Positions 12,631 to 18,756 of a stretch of DNA of 36,828 nucleotides are shown here, in pieces. Position numbers and translations under genes: made by a program. The stretch spans positions 1 through 36,828 of the forward strand of contig JABSOQ010000019.1 of NCBI GenBank assembly GCA_013216195.1, written 5' to 3'. Below the pieces are notes generated by a model, which had not been told where the DNA came from, searched no databases, and saw only the letters and a program-made list of their open reading frames with translations. Every line of letters begins with the position of its first letter. Positions within the stretch are counted from its first letter, which is position 1. Origin of the DNA: Bdellovibrionales bacterium (GTDB lineage Bacteria > Bdellovibrionota > Bdellovibrionia > Bdellovibrionales > UBA1609).

Positions 12631-13797
12631 TTAGTTCGTAACAACAGCCTGATTTATCAAATCTACCTTTGTTTTTACTTTTTGAAGGGTGTAGCCGATA
12701 TTTATCGTCATGATTTGATTAAGTAAGTTTCCAATTGGGTTGTAAAGATAGTCGGTAAATGACATTTCTCTTCGGGAGCCACATCCTTCGTTGTTGAGCA
12801 CGCACTTGTCTGAGCTCCCTTTCCTAAGATGGGCGTAATAGTCGTTAAGTGTTGCCGACTTCACAAGAAAAGGTGACATAGCAAGACCTGTTATCGACTT
12901 CAACGTGCGCTTAAGAAAACTTTGTTTCGTCGCTTGGTTTTCTTCTAGTGAAGAGACCATCAAAGCGGTGACAGGGTCATCGGCAACTAGGTCTAGTGAG
13001 CTTGCGACAACTCGAAACTCGACCGACAGGGTGTGATCTCGAATTTGATTGAAGTCGACTGATATGTTGGCTTGTGAGCTGTCTTTAAGGAGCCCGAGTT
13101 TCTTGATCCGCTCTTGGTGGTCACGTAGAAAGGTTTGTGAATCATCGATTATGTTAACTGCAATGACTGAAAACAGCAGGCTATTTGGTAGCTTGATTGA
13201 AGCGGCGTAAAAGTCTCTTTGCTCAAGCAAGATCTCAAGAGCTTTCTGTTCATTGCCACTAGCCCACAGCTGGTCAATTCTAAAGAATCTCTGTTTTGCC
13301 AAATTGAAAAGAGTTATTGCTGGAAAGGCCAGTGCATCCATGTTGAAAGGCACATCAATGCCGATACCCGGGTAAGCCAATAGCTCACTGTATCTCTTTA
13401 CGGAGAGTTGCCCCTCTGGGCTTTGGAGCTTCTCCTTCAGCTCTTGTAACTCTTCTTCTTTGCACTCAGAGGGGAGACGACAGTAAACCTTAAGATCAAG
13501 TTTGCTAGCTCCTTCGCTTGCAGATCTTCTCAAGTTGTTGGCCTGTTCACTCGAATTGCCAATGGCCTCGTACACTGTTTGACCAAGTTCTAGTGGCGAA
13601 GAATCTTGCGGTGATCCGATGCCAAGCGTGTATTTGTAGGCTTCAACCTGGGCGGGCGTTGGGCTTGAAAGTTCTCTTTCAAGCATATCTTTGGCTGCTG
13701 GGTCGAGCGCTGGGGCCCAAAGGTTGGCAAGAATTAACGCCAAGGAGAATACCAGCATGCCACAGCCAACGAAAACAAATGCTTTTTTTATCATCAA
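12631..13797 (-). CDS. membrane-anchored periplasmic protein of unknown function
   Basis: The 388-residue product starts with one long hydrophobic segment (about residues 5-28, KAFVFVGCGMLVFSLALILA), a signal anchor or signal peptide. The rest is a soluble, helical periplasmic domain; it has a few Cys residues including a CRLPSEC pair near 107-113 and KCVLNNEGC near 335-343, which could form disulphides. Two Met codons open the gene; GAAAGG lies a suitable distance upstream. No domain is recognised. It stands alone: 154 bases from the terminator downstream and 171 bases from the next gene upstream, which shares its orientation. Confidence 0.72.
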   Translation of the reverse strand: MMIKKAFVFVGCGMLVFSLALILANLWAPALDPAAKDMLERELSSPTPAQVEAYKYTLGIGSPQDSSPLELGQTVYEAIGNSSEQANNLRRSASEGASKLDLKVYCRLPSECKEEELQELKEKLQSPEGQLSVKRYSELLAYPGIGIDVPFNMDALAFPAITLFNLAKQRFFRIDQLWASGNEQKALEILLEQRDFYAASIKLPNSLLFSVIAVNIIDDSQTFLRDHQERIKKLGLLKDSSQANISVDFNQIRDHTLSVEFRVVASSLDLVADDPVTALMVSSLEENQATKQSFLKRTLKSITGLAMSPFLVKSATLNDYYAHLRKGSSDKCVLNNEGCGSRREMSFTDYLYNPIGNLLNQIMTINIGYTLQKVKTKVDLINQAVVTN

Positions 13798-13968
13798 AAG
13801 GGCCTTTCAAGGCTTTGAGTAAAAACCAATCTAACTCTACAACTTGCAATAACTAGACTTTTACGAGTTTTGAATTGAATGACAGTACAAAATCAAGATT
13901 GCCTTGGTAATGCTGAAATTTTAGTGGCTTACAGTTAAGTTTGCAGGCTAAGGCGAATTAAAACTCTC

Positions 13969-14697
13969 TCATTTTGACAGCTCAACTTCGCAGCTGTCTG
14001 AACTGTGAGCGTCTGAAAAAACTATTAGAGACTCACTCCAGCCGGCTTCATTAACCAATTGCTCAATAGCCACGAGGTCTTCATTATTTATGATTTCATC
14101 ATCTGGGTAGGCCATTTGCCAACGGATGCGATTCAGCCTCTCAATTGGCAGATGCCGAGAAACAAGATCGAGAAGCGCAACTGACTGCAATGGTTTCTGA
14201 GATGACTCGAGCTGCTCTAGAGTTTGCTGCTGCTGTTCTGCCAGCTCTTCTAGAAAAGCGAGCCGCGATTGTTCAAGCTGCCGCATGCGTACGAGTTGCC
14301 TTCTGGCTACGTCTAGCCTTTCAATTTGGTCTAGGCTTATATTTTCAATTTCTGTGTAGTTCATGACAATGTTGTAGTGCCGATCAATAAGATCGATTCG
14401 ATCTGCAGGGTGGATAAGGCAGAACACTTCGTCGACCGTGCAGGCAGAGGCCTCACTCGATATCGACCTAATCCAGCCCCAGGGGATGCTTGCCGGGGGA
14501 GCTATGTTAGTCGCTGAGCCTAAAGCCGCAGTCGTCGGGGGTGAGTTCGCGAAAGAAGGCATGCCTGTCACGGCAGCTGTGGCTGTAGCGGCAAATAGCC
14601 CAAGAACTGGACGCCTGGTTAGATCTGTGGCCTCTGCGTGTGGAGAAATAACCGTCACTACTAATATATAGAGTGTGAGCTCAAGCCAAAACTTCAT
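13969..14697 (-). CDS. exported protein of unknown function
   Basis: The 242-residue product has a Sec signal peptide (MKFWLELTLYILVVTVISPHAEA, cleavage near residue 23), followed by an Ala/Pro/Thr-rich segment of about 45 residues that is probably flexible. A helical region then runs from about 100 to 190 with heptad-like spacing (for example LEELAEQQQQTLEQLESSQ), suggesting a coiled coil. Four Cys residues occur (two in ACTVDEVFC, one near the C-terminus). No family is recognised and no clear ribosome site precedes the ATG. It is divergent from the Fis-type regulator. Confidence 0.65.
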   Translation of the reverse strand: MKFWLELTLYILVVTVISPHAEATDLTRRPVLGLFAATATAAVTGMPSFANSPPTTAALGSATNIAPPASIPWGWIRSISSEASACTVDEVFCLIHPADRIDLIDRHYNIVMNYTEIENISLDQIERLDVARRQLVRMRQLEQSRLAFLEELAEQQQQTLEQLESSQKPLQSVALLDLVSRHLPIERLNRIRWQMAYPDDEIINNEDLVAIEQLVNEAGWSESLIVFSDAHSSDSCEVELSK

Positions 14698-14990: not shown

Positions 14991-15425
14991 ATGGCACGTT
15001 CAACTGTAATCTTGGTAAGTGATGACCACGCCGAGATCGAAAAAGTACGCAATTTTTCTCAGGGGCATGGGCTCGCACTTAAAGTGTTTTCTAACACTGA
15101 GTGGGCGAGAGGCATGAACGATCCTGAGTTCCGCAAAAACGTGGGTGGCGATGTTCCATCTTTGACAGTGGGCACTGCGCCTGTTGATCAGGGTGCGAAG
15201 ATTCTTCCATTTCCAGGTACAAGTCAGCCTTCTCGAGGTGCTTCAGCCAAAGTTCGCACAATCAACGAGCTAGAAAGCATTGCTATCGAGAATGCAATTC
15301 ACGAGTACAACGGTAATTTGACTGAAGCAGCAAAAGCTTTGGGCATTGGCCGTGCAACTCTTTACAGAAAAGTGAAGCAATACAACATTGATCCTTCACA
15401 GGCTCGCAAAAAGCGCGCTGCTTAA
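14991..15425 (+). CDS. Fis-type helix-turn-helix regulator
   Basis: The 144-residue product ends in a Fis/NtrC-type DNA-binding domain (about 87-131): ELESIAIENAIHEYNGN is followed by LTEAAKALGIGRATLYRKVK, the classic HTH_8 sequence with the recognition helix IGRATLYRKVKQY. The N-terminal half (1-60) begins STVILVSDD like a receiver domain but is far too short and lacks a convincing phosphorylation site, so it may be a receiver remnant. A linker with ILPFPG joins the halves. There is no AAA+ domain, so it acts without being a sigma-54 activator by itself. A clear GGAGG ribosome site precedes the ATG, and an intrinsic terminator follows 30 bases after the stop. Confidence 0.9.
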   Translation: MARSTVILVSDDHAEIEKVRNFSQGHGLALKVFSNTEWARGMNDPEFRKNVGGDVPSLTVGTAPVDQGAKILPFPGTSQPSRGASAKVRTINELESIAIENAIHEYNGNLTEAAKALGIGRATLYRKVKQYNIDPSQARKKRAA

Positions 15426-15454
15426 TCTGAAATTTTGAAAGTTATAGATTGAGG

Positions 15455-15483
15455 AAGGGCTCCTTTCAGGGGCCCTTTTTTTT
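15455..15483 (+). terminator. intrinsic terminator after the Fis-type gene, abutting the next start codon
   Basis: AAGGGCTCC (15455-15463) pairs with GGGGCCCTT (15469-15477), one G-U pair, around a 5-base loop, and runs into eight T. The next gene's ATG is at 15488, only four bases after the T-tract, so the hairpin also covers the place where that gene's ribosome site should be. Confidence 0.88.
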
Positions 15484-15487
15484 GACA

Positions 15488-16729
15488 ATGAAACTTCTTG
15501 GAATCTACTTCGTATCGATTGTCTCTTTTGGTCTCCTCTGTTGGAGTCTGGTAGTGTCGTCTGTCTATGGCGATGCAATCTCTATGGTCTGTAAGACTGT
15601 CTCTGCACGAATATTCGAGAAACCTGATGGGCTTACTAAATGGTCTAAAGAGTGCTTGTCGCTCAGTGATCAAGTGTCAGCCTTTCGGCACAAATCGCAC
15701 GTTGTGAATCTATTGGCAGAAAAACTTGATGAGTTGCAAATGAGTCATCTGGGCATTTACGTTCCGAGTGAGACAAGGCAACTCTGGACGGGTGAATCAC
15801 GAGACACGGGTCTGCGAGGTCGATTTATTGAGACTCAATTTGTGATTTCAGAGGTCTTGAAAGGATCTTCGGCTGAGCAGCAGGGCGTAAAAGTGGGAGA
15901 CAGTTTGGCCACAATTAATGGCAAGAGCGTGATCTCCCAGTGGCAGGGGCAAAAGGCACGAGGAGAGTTCGTCTTTCTAAGGGGAGACAACTTGCTCACT
16001 TTTCAGATTGAACCTGAAAAAATGCAAATCGATGAAGCGCCAACACTTGAAAGTGTTGATAGAGGTGTTGGCAGACTTCGAATCTCGAGCTTTAGAAAAG
16101 AGCTTTGGGATAAACTGGCGTGGTCAACTTTGGCAAAGGAGGGCTTTGCAAAATATCAATCATTGATCGTCGATATTAGAGGCAACCCGGGTGGCAGTTT
16201 TGTCGCCATGCTGAGAGCACTTTCTCCGTTTTTCTGTGAACCTCAAAGTATCGGCCATGTCATCAAACCACGAGATCTCGCCTCTCACGCATCAAGAGTT
16301 AGAAGACTGCCCGATGATCCGAGTGATGCTCTGCAAATTGAGATTTTCTCAGAGAACTCAATAGTGAATCTAGAAACCTATGAGGACTATGGGTGTTTTA
16401 GGGGGCGGGTTGTAGTTTTGATAGATCAAGAGACGGCTTCGGTGGCAGAAATATTTGCTGAAGCGATTAAACATCGTAAAAAATCTAAAGTCATAGGAGC
16501 TGTGTCTTCCGGGGATGTCTTGTTGGGTGTCTGGTATGATTTGTCGATTCTGGGAAGGGATCATTCTTTCTCGGTACCTGAGGCTCTTTATCAAAATCCA
16601 GAGGGAGAAACTCTAGAAAGGGTTGGCGTCAGCCCTGACTTTGAGGTTGAATATAAGTTAGAAGAAGCTTTGTTGGGCAGAGACAGTTTCGTCCTAGAGG
16701 CTGTGTCGTCATTACGGGGAGACAACTGA
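15488..16729 (+). CDS. S41-family (CtpA-like) protease homologue with altered active site
   Basis: The 413-residue product has a Sec signal peptide (about 1-28), a PDZ domain at about 85-175 (LKGSSAEQQGVKVGDSLATI is the ligand-groove region) and an S41 catalytic domain (about 185-390) with LIVDIRGNPGGS and the nucleophile motif DQETASVAEIFAEAI, Ser318. In C-terminal processing proteases such as E. coli Prc the general base Lys lies exactly 25 residues after the Ser in an F-G-K-G context; here position 343 is Asp (SSGDV). It may be inactive or use other residues. An in-frame TTG at 15449 would put the terminator inside the gene; the ATG at 15488 starts the signal peptide. The stop is directly followed by the ATG of the DUF805 gene: an operon. 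Confidence 0.85.
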   Translation: MKLLGIYFVSIVSFGLLCWSLVVSSVYGDAISMVCKTVSARIFEKPDGLTKWSKECLSLSDQVSAFRHKSHVVNLLAEKLDELQMSHLGIYVPSETRQLWTGESRDTGLRGRFIETQFVISEVLKGSSAEQQGVKVGDSLATINGKSVISQWQGQKARGEFVFLRGDNLLTFQIEPEKMQIDEAPTLESVDRGVGRLRISSFRKELWDKLAWSTLAKEGFAKYQSLIVDIRGNPGGSFVAMLRALSPFFCEPQSIGHVIKPRDLASHASRVRRLPDDPSDALQIEIFSENSIVNLETYEDYGCFRGRVVVLIDQETASVAEIFAEAIKHRKKSKVIGAVSSGDVLLGVWYDLSILGRDHSFSVPEALYQNPEGETLERVGVSPDFEVEYKLEEALLGRDSFVLEAVSSLRGDN

Positions 16730-17659
16730 ATGTTCATCAAGACAACGGGCAGAGTGAATCGGTTAGGTTTCTGGGACAAAAGCTACGGAGCGGCTGTTAT
16801 CTTGCTTATGATGGTAACTGGTCTACTGATTTTTATCAGTCAAGATGCGTGGGCTGCTGGTCTAATTCTAATTGCAACTTTTCTTTATTTTTTGCATACG
16901 GTTGGTGTTGCGATTCGCCGTTTGCACGATTTAGGGCATCCTGGGTATTTTGTTATTGCCTATTTTGTTCCTGGTATTAATGCTTTGATGCTCTTGTATT
17001 TGATGTTTTGGCCAGGTCAGCCCCAGAAGAATACTTATGGAGAACCTGATCAAGACAGATCTTTGGCTGGTGTACTAGTCGCACTTGCCATCTCATTGGC
17101 TTTTGTCGGAGCCACTTCTTACTATGCTGTGACCAATCAAGAAAAGACACAGGCTGAGCTTCAAACTCGCTTAAAAAAGATTGAAAAGCTTCAGCAGAAG
17201 GTGATTAATCCTGAGGCAGCTAATTCTGATGAGGAAGCTGAGCGTATAGATGACCCTGACGGAGCAAATGCTAAGCGCGCTCAGACCACAGCAGAAAACC
17301 AGATCGAGTCTTTGAGAAAGCAGGGCAGATGGACCGCAGGAGAGTTCTTCTTCAATAAGAAAGGAGACATGATCATGCTTATACGACATGAGCTTGAGCG
17401 CTTCCGAGAGCTCTGCGGACGCTTGCCGAGCGCGACTCAAGAAGGCATCTATGTACTCAACGTTGGCAAGAAAGCCAAGCTGTGCCCAAAGTGGACTGGG
17501 CGTGTGCCTCGGATGTCTCCTGAAGACTTTGGCTTTAGAATCTACTTTACCAAACTCTCAGAAACACACGTAGCTCTCTACACCTACGGCATGGACAACA
17601 AACGAGGGGGAGAGGGGCCCGATCAAGACTGGCGAATGGACATTCAAGAGATACAGTAA
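16730..17659 (+). CDS. DUF805 membrane protein fused to a GspG pseudopilin-like domain
   Basis: The 309-residue product has an N-terminal DUF805 region (about 1-135) with GRVNRLGFWDKSY, several membrane helices and the family motif IRRLHDLGHPGYF at 62-74. A coiled coil (about 138-160) and an acidic linker lead to a C-terminal domain of about 100 residues. That domain resembles the periplasmic part of the type II secretion pseudopilin GspG: a helix ending LERFRELCGRLPSATQEG, then PEDFGFRIYF, then YGMDNKRGGEGPDQDW (286-301), which matches the GspG calcium loop (G-A-D-G-x-x-G-G-E-G-x-D-A-D). No prepilin peptidase site precedes it. The ATG directly follows the S41 gene's stop, with a GGGGAGA ribosome site inside that gene. 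Confidence 0.82.
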   Translation: MFIKTTGRVNRLGFWDKSYGAAVILLMMVTGLLIFISQDAWAAGLILIATFLYFLHTVGVAIRRLHDLGHPGYFVIAYFVPGINALMLLYLMFWPGQPQKNTYGEPDQDRSLAGVLVALAISLAFVGATSYYAVTNQEKTQAELQTRLKKIEKLQQKVINPEAANSDEEAERIDDPDGANAKRAQTTAENQIESLRKQGRWTAGEFFFNKKGDMIMLIRHELERFRELCGRLPSATQEGIYVLNVGKKAKLCPKWTGRVPRMSPEDFGFRIYFTKLSETHVALYTYGMDNKRGGEGPDQDWRMDIQEIQ

Positions 17660-17670
17660 AGCTAGTGTAG

Positions 17671-18756
17671 CTATCTCGTGGTTTGTTTGCCACAACTGTA
17701 AGAAGCTCGTTTGAAATCGTCAGCCAAAATAGACTGTTTTTTAAGTCTCAGATCAGTTGCAGAAATTAAAATGACTTCTTTGTGAGCTTGATTGAGTTTG
17801 CAAGCTGACACCAAGTGCTTCAAAGCGATCTTGTAGTTGTTTTCTTCATAGAGAGACTTGCCCAGCCCAAGTTGAGAACGGTCTTGGTTTGGATTGGCTT
17901 TCACTGCGGCCTGAAAGTAGCGAGTCGATACAGGAAAATTGCCCTTGTCAAAGTAGTACTTGCCTGTGGCCCATTGTGCGATCTCAGCCATTGGAAACTT
18001 TTTCGCTGCTAAGCGAATGATTTTGCCACCCTTTGCATCATCACCTTTTTCGATATGAGCTTGGCCGAGGTAAATATAATTGTCAGCAAAGTTGCGAGAC
18101 TTCGCTATCGCCTTTTTGCACATTTCAATGGTTTGATTGAGGTACCCATCAATAGAGTAGAGTCGGCATTGGTCGTTCAGCAATTCAGGCCTGGCGCCAA
18201 ACTGGGCCACCATTTGAGTTAGCAGTTGCCGGGCTTCGTAGTTTAAATTGGTGCCAACAAAGTAATTGAGCAAGCTGTCATAAGCGGGCTTATATTTGGG
18301 CTTTAACTTTATGGCCTCTCGAAAAGCGATAACTAAGCTTGTCTCAATCTCTTTTCTTTTGTTTTCATCTTTGGTTTCATCTAGCCACTTCAATAAACCA
18401 TGACCAAGCACAAAGTGGCTTTCGTAGTTGTCTTTATCTCGATCATTCAGGATTCGCAAAATACGAACCTCGTTTTCGACGTCATTCATATTTCCATAGG
18501 CGTTGGCGAGGTCTAGATAACCAGGCACAGAGAGCTGATCTGTATAGGGGTTGAGAAGTTCAATGACCTTCTTGTTTTGACCTGTGTTTAAGGCTCTTCG
18601 GGCCTGGGCTTCTCTTTTGCTAGTAGATTTTGTGGCAACCGGTGAGCTCGGTCTGTCATTAAGCTCAGCATCTTCCTGGGCTGAAGATGCCTGGTGGATA
18701 ATCAGAGCGAGTAGGCTTGCGAGGAAAATTCTGAAGAATCTAAATGAAGTTGCCAT
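17671..18756 (-). CDS. exported TPR-repeat protein
   Basis: The 361-residue product has a signal peptide (about 1-25, ending ASSAQ) and then tandem tetratricopeptide repeats from about 50 to 345; clear examples are SVPGYLDLANAYGNMND, NYIYLGQAHIEKGDDAKGG and SRYFQAAVKANP-like segments with the usual Ala/Gly/Tyr/Pro spacing. TPR arrays mediate protein-protein contacts; the signal peptide puts this one in the periplasm. It is 31 bases downstream of the Gly-rich exported protein gene on the same strand and probably shares its transcript. It converges on the DUF805 gene with an 11-base gap. No catalytic domain is present. Confidence 0.85.
   Translation of the reverse strand: MATSFRFFRIFLASLLALIIHQASSAQEDAELNDRPSSPVATKSTSKREAQARRALNTGQNKKVIELLNPYTDQLSVPGYLDLANAYGNMNDVENEVRILRILNDRDKDNYESHFVLGHGLLKWLDETKDENKRKEIETSLVIAFREAIKLKPKYKPAYDSLLNYFVGTNLNYEARQLLTQMVAQFGARPELLNDQCRLYSIDGYLNQTIEMCKKAIAKSRNFADNYIYLGQAHIEKGDDAKGGKIIRLAAKKFPMAEIAQWATGKYYFDKGNFPVSTRYFQAAVKANPNQDRSQLGLGKSLYEENNYKIALKHLVSACKLNQAHKEVILISATDLRLKKQSILADDFKRASYSCGKQTTR

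Follow-up and report, generated by a model that had tools for sequence, protein, structure and literature searches.

The locus and its fusion gene

The window, meaning the whole stretch of 36,828 nucleotides that was analysed, contains an intact open reading frame with an ATG start and no internal stops, whose 309-residue product joins a DUF805 membrane module to a GspG-like C-terminal domain, hereafter called the head (Table 1). Between the two lie a further transmembrane helix (TM4) and a charged helical stalk. The gene follows an S41-family peptidase gene, and its ATG at 16730 adjoins the S41 stop codon TGA (16727-16729) with no gap. A convergent TPR gene lies on the other side. No type II secretion (T2SS) genes were recognised among the open reading frames examined in the window.

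Table 1. Coordinates of the fusion gene, its parts and its neighbours in the window.
Feature	Coordinates	Strand	Basis
DUF805-TM4-stalk-GspG-like protein, 309 aa	16730..17659	+	ORF list, Pfam
DUF805 membrane module, residues 3-105	16736..17044	+	Pfam E=1.9e-17, AlphaFold2 model
Fourth transmembrane helix, residues ~112-134, one helix on to residue 159	17063..17131	+	hydropathy, AlphaFold2 helix 113-159
Charged helical stalk/linker, residues 135-200	17132..17329	+	sequence and model
GspG-like (T2SSG) domain, residues ~213-305	17366..17644	+	Pfam, local HMMs and 20,000 shuffles, AlphaFold2 and Foldseek
Cys229, one of the protein's only two cysteines; invariant in the aligned GspG/GspG-like set	17414..17416	+	alignment
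Cys252 in the CPKW motif, presumed to form a disulphide with Cys229	17483..17485	+	alignment
Calcium-type loop GMDNKRGGEGPDQD, Asp289 and Asp300 at conserved Asp columns	17588..17629	+	alignment, ligand positions PMC3396595
Shine-Dalgarno-like GGGGAG within the 3' end of the S41 gene, 8 nt 5' of the ATG	16716..16721	+	sequence
S41-family peptidase gene, immediately 5' of the fusion gene; may in fact start at ATG 15488	15449..16729	+	Pfam, alignment
Fis-type regulator gene, conserved neighbour upstream of the S41 gene	14991..15425	+	Pfam, relatives
Convergent TPR gene; directly after the S41 gene in five relatives without the fusion gene	17671..18756	-	Pfam, relatives

Homology of the C-terminal domain to GspG

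The DUF805 profile (Pfam PF05656) was matched over its full length (profile positions 2-111 of 111) at 64.1 bits, against a cut-off of 25.7. For the head, the T2SSG profile (PF08334) gave a borderline match to residues 215-300 (E=5e-4, 20.5 bits against a cut-off of 21) that rose above the cut-off in a six-frame search (21.5 bits), and the NCBIfam GspG equivalog (TIGR01710) gave 17 bits, far under its cut-off of 88.85. Two local HMMs were built with the window protein left out: 11 true GspGs from related genomes went into the first, and 11 GspG-like sequences without a prepilin motif into the second. The head scored 31 bits with the former and 45 bits with the latter, compared with 11.6 and 11.2 bits, respectively, for the best of 20,000 shuffles, which rules out chance similarity to GspG and places the match well above background. 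An earlier note, made from the sequence alone, had described the protein as DUF805 fused to a GspG-like domain, and this domain call is correct, and stronger than Pfam by itself would suggest.

In the alignment, RELCGRLPSATQEG, CPKW, PEDFGF and YGMDNKRGGEGPDQDW follow one another in the GspG order within a domain of about residues 205-305, and the GspG features that had been picked out by eye fall in the correct places. Cys229, the proline of RLPS, Cys252 and Trp255 occupy invariant or nearly invariant columns, and the invariant Cys-Pro-Cys-Trp pattern is retained. The proposed match of the last loop to the GspG calcium loop also held, both in length and in the two aspartates that it has in common with the EpsG-type loop. 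Calcium in the GspG structure 3G20 has two side-chain ligands, the aspartates at motif positions 3 and 11 (PMC3396595). Because the 3G20 loop is shorter than that of EpsG, Asp289 and Asp300 were equated with these ligands through conserved alignment columns, and they are the predicted calcium-ligand aspartates of the last loop. In pairwise comparison the closest sequence was a protein from another genome (L048; 33% over 86 residues, E=6e-9), followed by a signal-peptide protein of the same genome as the window and then by that genome's own GspG (28%, E=8e-5). The C-terminal domain of the window protein and the globular domain of GspG are homologous. A phmmer search of the head against PDB chains gave no sequence match up to E=10, and the link to the PDB therefore rests on comparison of folds.

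Predicted fold of the head

The DUF805 part and the head were modelled separately; a joint MAFFT alignment had placed GspG heads on the DUF805 part. The AlphaFold2 model of the head, built from 19 sequences, had a pLDDT of 81 and consisted of one long helix (13-39) and strands at 81-85, 90-95 and 111-116, numbered from residue 191. Searched with Foldseek against the PDB, its seven best matches were all GspG structures (EpsG of V. cholerae and V. vulnificus, XcpT of P. aeruginosa), with probabilities of 0.90-1.00 and TM scores of about 0.5, and the eighth was unrelated (probability 0.12). Structure prediction thus ranked GspG first, as the earlier note had expected, with E-values of only 0.007-0.09 and none below 0.001. 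Because the alignment given to AlphaFold2 included true GspGs, the model is no independent test of the homology.

Absence of pilin features

A T2SSG Pfam match alone does not make a protein a pseudopilin. Filament subunits are defined by a class III signal peptide, which is cleaved after a glycine and carries glutamate at position 5 (PMC4471445). The true GspGs in our set have the corresponding G-F/M-T-L-x-E prepilin motif (one of them, L095, lacked it by pattern, yet shows GMTLFEI on inspection). No such motif was found anywhere N-terminal of the head in the window protein. Its head is joined to no hydrophobic pilin helix, and about 65 residues of polar stalk lie between it and the last transmembrane segment. 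As had been claimed, the protein lacks the pilin helix and the prepilin peptidase site, and by the model and motif search DUF805, one transmembrane helix and a helical stalk take their place. Since the prepilin motif is absent, the window protein cannot be a normal filament subunit; true GspG membership is ruled out for want of a prepilin site, and to judge by its sequence the protein is not a pseudopilin in the functional sense. We defined a non-pilin GspG-like class as proteins that lack a prepilin motif and that the non-pilin HMM scores above the pilin HMM; the window protein belongs to it on both counts (45 vs 31 bits).

In common with GspG, PulG, XcpT and EpsG (PF08334, TIGR01710), the head has the end of the head helix, the Cys-x-x-x-Pro pattern, a SLGxDGxxGG-type calcium loop and the predicted fold, and with the GspGs of related genomes it also has Cys-Pro-x-Trp. 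Unlike GspG, the protein has no class III signal peptide, no Glu5 and no adjacent hydrophobic helix, and is anchored instead by DUF805 and TM4.

The genome's own GspG gene lies on another contig (C253), beside GspF- and GspH-like genes. With GspG homology and T2SS genes in the same genome, the protein could be a T2SS modulator, its fixed head docking to pseudopilus subunits or to the assembly platform so as to cap or check growth of the filament. We regard this as very unlikely: the hydrophobic helix and Glu5 through which pilins assemble are missing, the fusion gene lies outside the T2SS cluster, and no GspG is nearly as diverged as the head.

Membrane anchor and topology

The DUF805 module is complete, with its GRxxR, RRLHD and NxYG motifs. 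Most DUF805 proteins (PF05656) end after the module, whereas the window protein adds TM4, the stalk and the GspG-like head. YhaH and YhaI of E. coli are DUF805 membrane proteins. In the AlphaFold2 model of residues 1-165 (pLDDT 85) helices were predicted at 11-20/22-36, 40-67, 72-79, 83-93 and 113-159, the last of them continuous and joining TM4 to the stalk. The DUF805 model had no match in the PDB.

Hydropathy gave four hydrophobic segments, and the distribution of charges placed the N-terminus and the RRLHD loop inside; charge counts around TM4 were indifferent. The side on which the head lies depends on the third DUF805 segment: should it cross the membrane, the head is cytoplasmic, and should it be re-entrant, the head is periplasmic. 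The periplasmic location that the earlier note had assigned runs counter to a plain count, by which four segments and an inside N-terminus lead back to the cytoplasm, and it stands only with a re-entrant third segment, as the model and the short family members suggest. On the first reading, DUF805 would make three full crossings and TM4 the fourth, and the cysteine pair and calcium loop would be relics. Such a cytoplasmic head agrees with the four segments and with the positive N-terminus and second loop, and is the less likely topology, though one to be taken seriously. Against it, the third segment is split at Pro81-Gly82 in the AlphaFold2 model, leaving two helices 8 and 11 residues long, the segment has only 16-17 residues in four family members (L052, L053, L074, L077), and both cysteines and both loop aspartates are retained in an otherwise highly diverged domain. 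Given a re-entrant third segment, for which the Pro81-Gly82 break, the short versions and the retained cysteines speak, the head is likely periplasmic.

Two other DUF805 proteins (L054 970-1860 and L060 1489-2400) follow the same plan of DUF805, a transmembrane helix and a soluble domain with other cargo; their C-termini differ, and Pfam names only DUF805 in them.

Distribution of the fusion and of non-pilin heads

No orthologue of the fusion was found in 141 genomes of the order, where only weaker GspG or GspG-like matches appeared, or in a search of the genome contigs. There was no DUF805-GspG fusion on plasmids, the matches being confined to the DUF805-TM4 part. DUF805 was found in 35 of the 369 genomes of the phylum. 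All open reading frames in the loci fetched from these, which took in all but a few weak DUF805 matches, were scored for a GspG-like head. The search for other DUF805 proteins with the same C-terminus, which the earlier note had put forward, came back empty in these loci: the window protein alone had a GspG-like head. The titles and abstracts of the few DUF805 papers surveyed hold nothing on a DUF805-GspG architecture. The DUF805-GspG fusion is a new variant.

GspG-like heads without a prepilin motif are more widespread. Besides the window protein, at least 11 such proteins occur in 7 genomes among the matches listed: L040 (G101), L041-L043 (G102), three in tandem in L044 (G140), L045 (G137), L046 (G057), L048 (G007) and L049 (the window's own genome). 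Among the same matches, their anchors are mostly a single transmembrane helix, otherwise three such helices or a signal peptide. Like the window protein, these proteins (L040-L046, L048, L049) combine the invariant Cys/Pro/Cys/Trp head with another anchor or a signal peptide in place of a prepilin motif. They differ in that, among the matches listed, only L048 and the window protein are multi-pass, and DUF805 occurs in the window protein alone. The latter is thus one lineage-specific case among the few GspG-like heads with non-pilin anchors that recur in the phylum. In our view this wider set is a more interesting result than the fusion itself. On the tree the non-pilin label requires 4 changes, though the class may have a single origin. 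The branch of the window head is very long, at 6.25 changes per site, and its placement is therefore unsure.

Several of the other proteins have features of their own. In the 278-residue L048 protein (1410-2246) three transmembrane helices precede a GspG-like head, which is followed by a long acidic tail; it is a separate instance of a multi-pass anchor for such a head, and DUF805 has no part in it. The L049 gene (1747-2025) encodes a signal peptide and a GspG-like head behind the gene of a LamG-like protein, and its frame ends early near the contig end. The window's own genome also encodes a protein of 195 residues (L050 1605-2192; G000:C135:17200-17499) with a T2SSG match above the cut-off (26.4 bits); it has one transmembrane helix by eye, neither prepilin motif nor cysteine pair, and is perhaps a further non-pilin case. 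Five large proteins (L032-L036; 291 to more than 820 residues) carry a prepilin motif, a T2SSG-type domain and long C-terminal parts, and resemble modular pilins.

The two halves of the fusion gene differ in GC3 (DUF805 part, 0.40; head, 0.59). This contrast was the largest among the window genes tested and suggests the joining of two genes; it is no proof, because one long ordinary gene came close (0.267 vs 0.276). Together with the single occurrence in 369 genomes and the long branch, the contrast would fit a neutral or decaying accident, either a recent fusion of DUF805 with a GspG-like fragment or a join made during assembly, with no maintained function. That explanation seems unlikely in view of the intact frame of 309 codons, the good ribosome-binding site, the retention of key head residues, and the recurrence of the DUF805-then-transmembrane-then-soluble-domain plan in L054 and L060.

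The S41 peptidase neighbourhood

The genes for the Fis-type regulator, the S41 peptidase and the TPR protein form a conserved block in four relatives (G023, G026, G006, G035), and in a fifth (G008) the block is conserved from the S41 gene on. The fusion gene is absent from all five, where the S41 gene is directly followed by the TPR gene, so that the simplest reading is an insertion in the window's lineage. A conserved operon with the S41 gene is ruled out by these relatives. Translational coupling to a protease-like gene, as the earlier note had it, would be allowed by the TGA/ATG adjacency, but it is not a conserved arrangement.

Two minus-strand genes for secreted proteins (12631-14697) lie between a gene for a protein of 149 aa (11973) and the Fis-type gene; since these two flanking genes are adjacent in relatives, the pair looks like a second lineage-specific insertion. 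In the S41 peptidase, Ser318 and His87 (numbered from 15488) are invariant among orthologues. Inspection of the alignment by eye shows SSGD/TAGD instead of lysine at the usual S41A position, so the active site is perhaps of the Ser-His type. A scan of the genome contigs with the S41 protein found one distant locus.

In L044 (1594-4501) the three tandem non-pilin GspG-like genes overlap an S9 prolyl oligopeptidase gene at its end, and a convergent S8 subtilase gene lies beyond. This arrangement is a second hint of an association of such heads with peptidases. The head might serve the adjacent S41 peptidase specifically, as an adaptor or tether in the inner membrane by which the periplasmic protease is positioned or regulated. 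Translational coupling would then keep synthesis of the two in step, as the directly abutting TGA and ATG and the Shine-Dalgarno-like site inside the S41 gene would permit. We consider a dedicated role of this kind improbable, insofar as the S41 orthologues in the five relatives do without the fusion gene and no peptidase can be recognised next to most of the other non-pilin GspG-like genes.

Discussion

The window protein probably sits in the inner membrane and re-uses, as a fixed interaction module of the envelope, a GspG-type pseudopilin head that has left the filament. DUF805 and one further helix would anchor it in the inner membrane, and the helical stalk would hold the head away from the membrane. 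The head, if periplasmic, would fold with bound calcium and a disulphide. It might conceivably bind a periplasmic partner there. One candidate is the S41 peptidase, whose translation immediately precedes its own; the other is the pseudopilus built by the cell's T2SS, into which the window protein could not itself be incorporated. The roles of sensor and of cap or decoy that the earlier note suggested are conjectural.

The type IV pilin fold is known almost exclusively from filament subunits that prepilin peptidase has processed. If the proposed role is correct, a pseudopilin head that retains the calcium-loop residues and is fixed to a multi-pass anchor would be a stand-alone envelope module, and the dozen or so relatives without a prepilin motif offer a set in which such a role can be tested. 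A broader proposal, which we hold to be highly doubtful, is that the phylum has repeatedly evolved non-polymerising, membrane-fixed GspG heads as regulators of, or docking sites for, the T2SS or its peptidase substrates, the window protein being the multi-pass DUF805 version.

GspG domains with extra domains outside the standard bacterial setting have been described in the mitochondrial GspG of jakobids and heteroloboseans (PMC8134430). The mitochondrial protein retains the polar anchor, transmembrane segment and Glu5 needed for maturation (PMC8134430), and the window protein does not.
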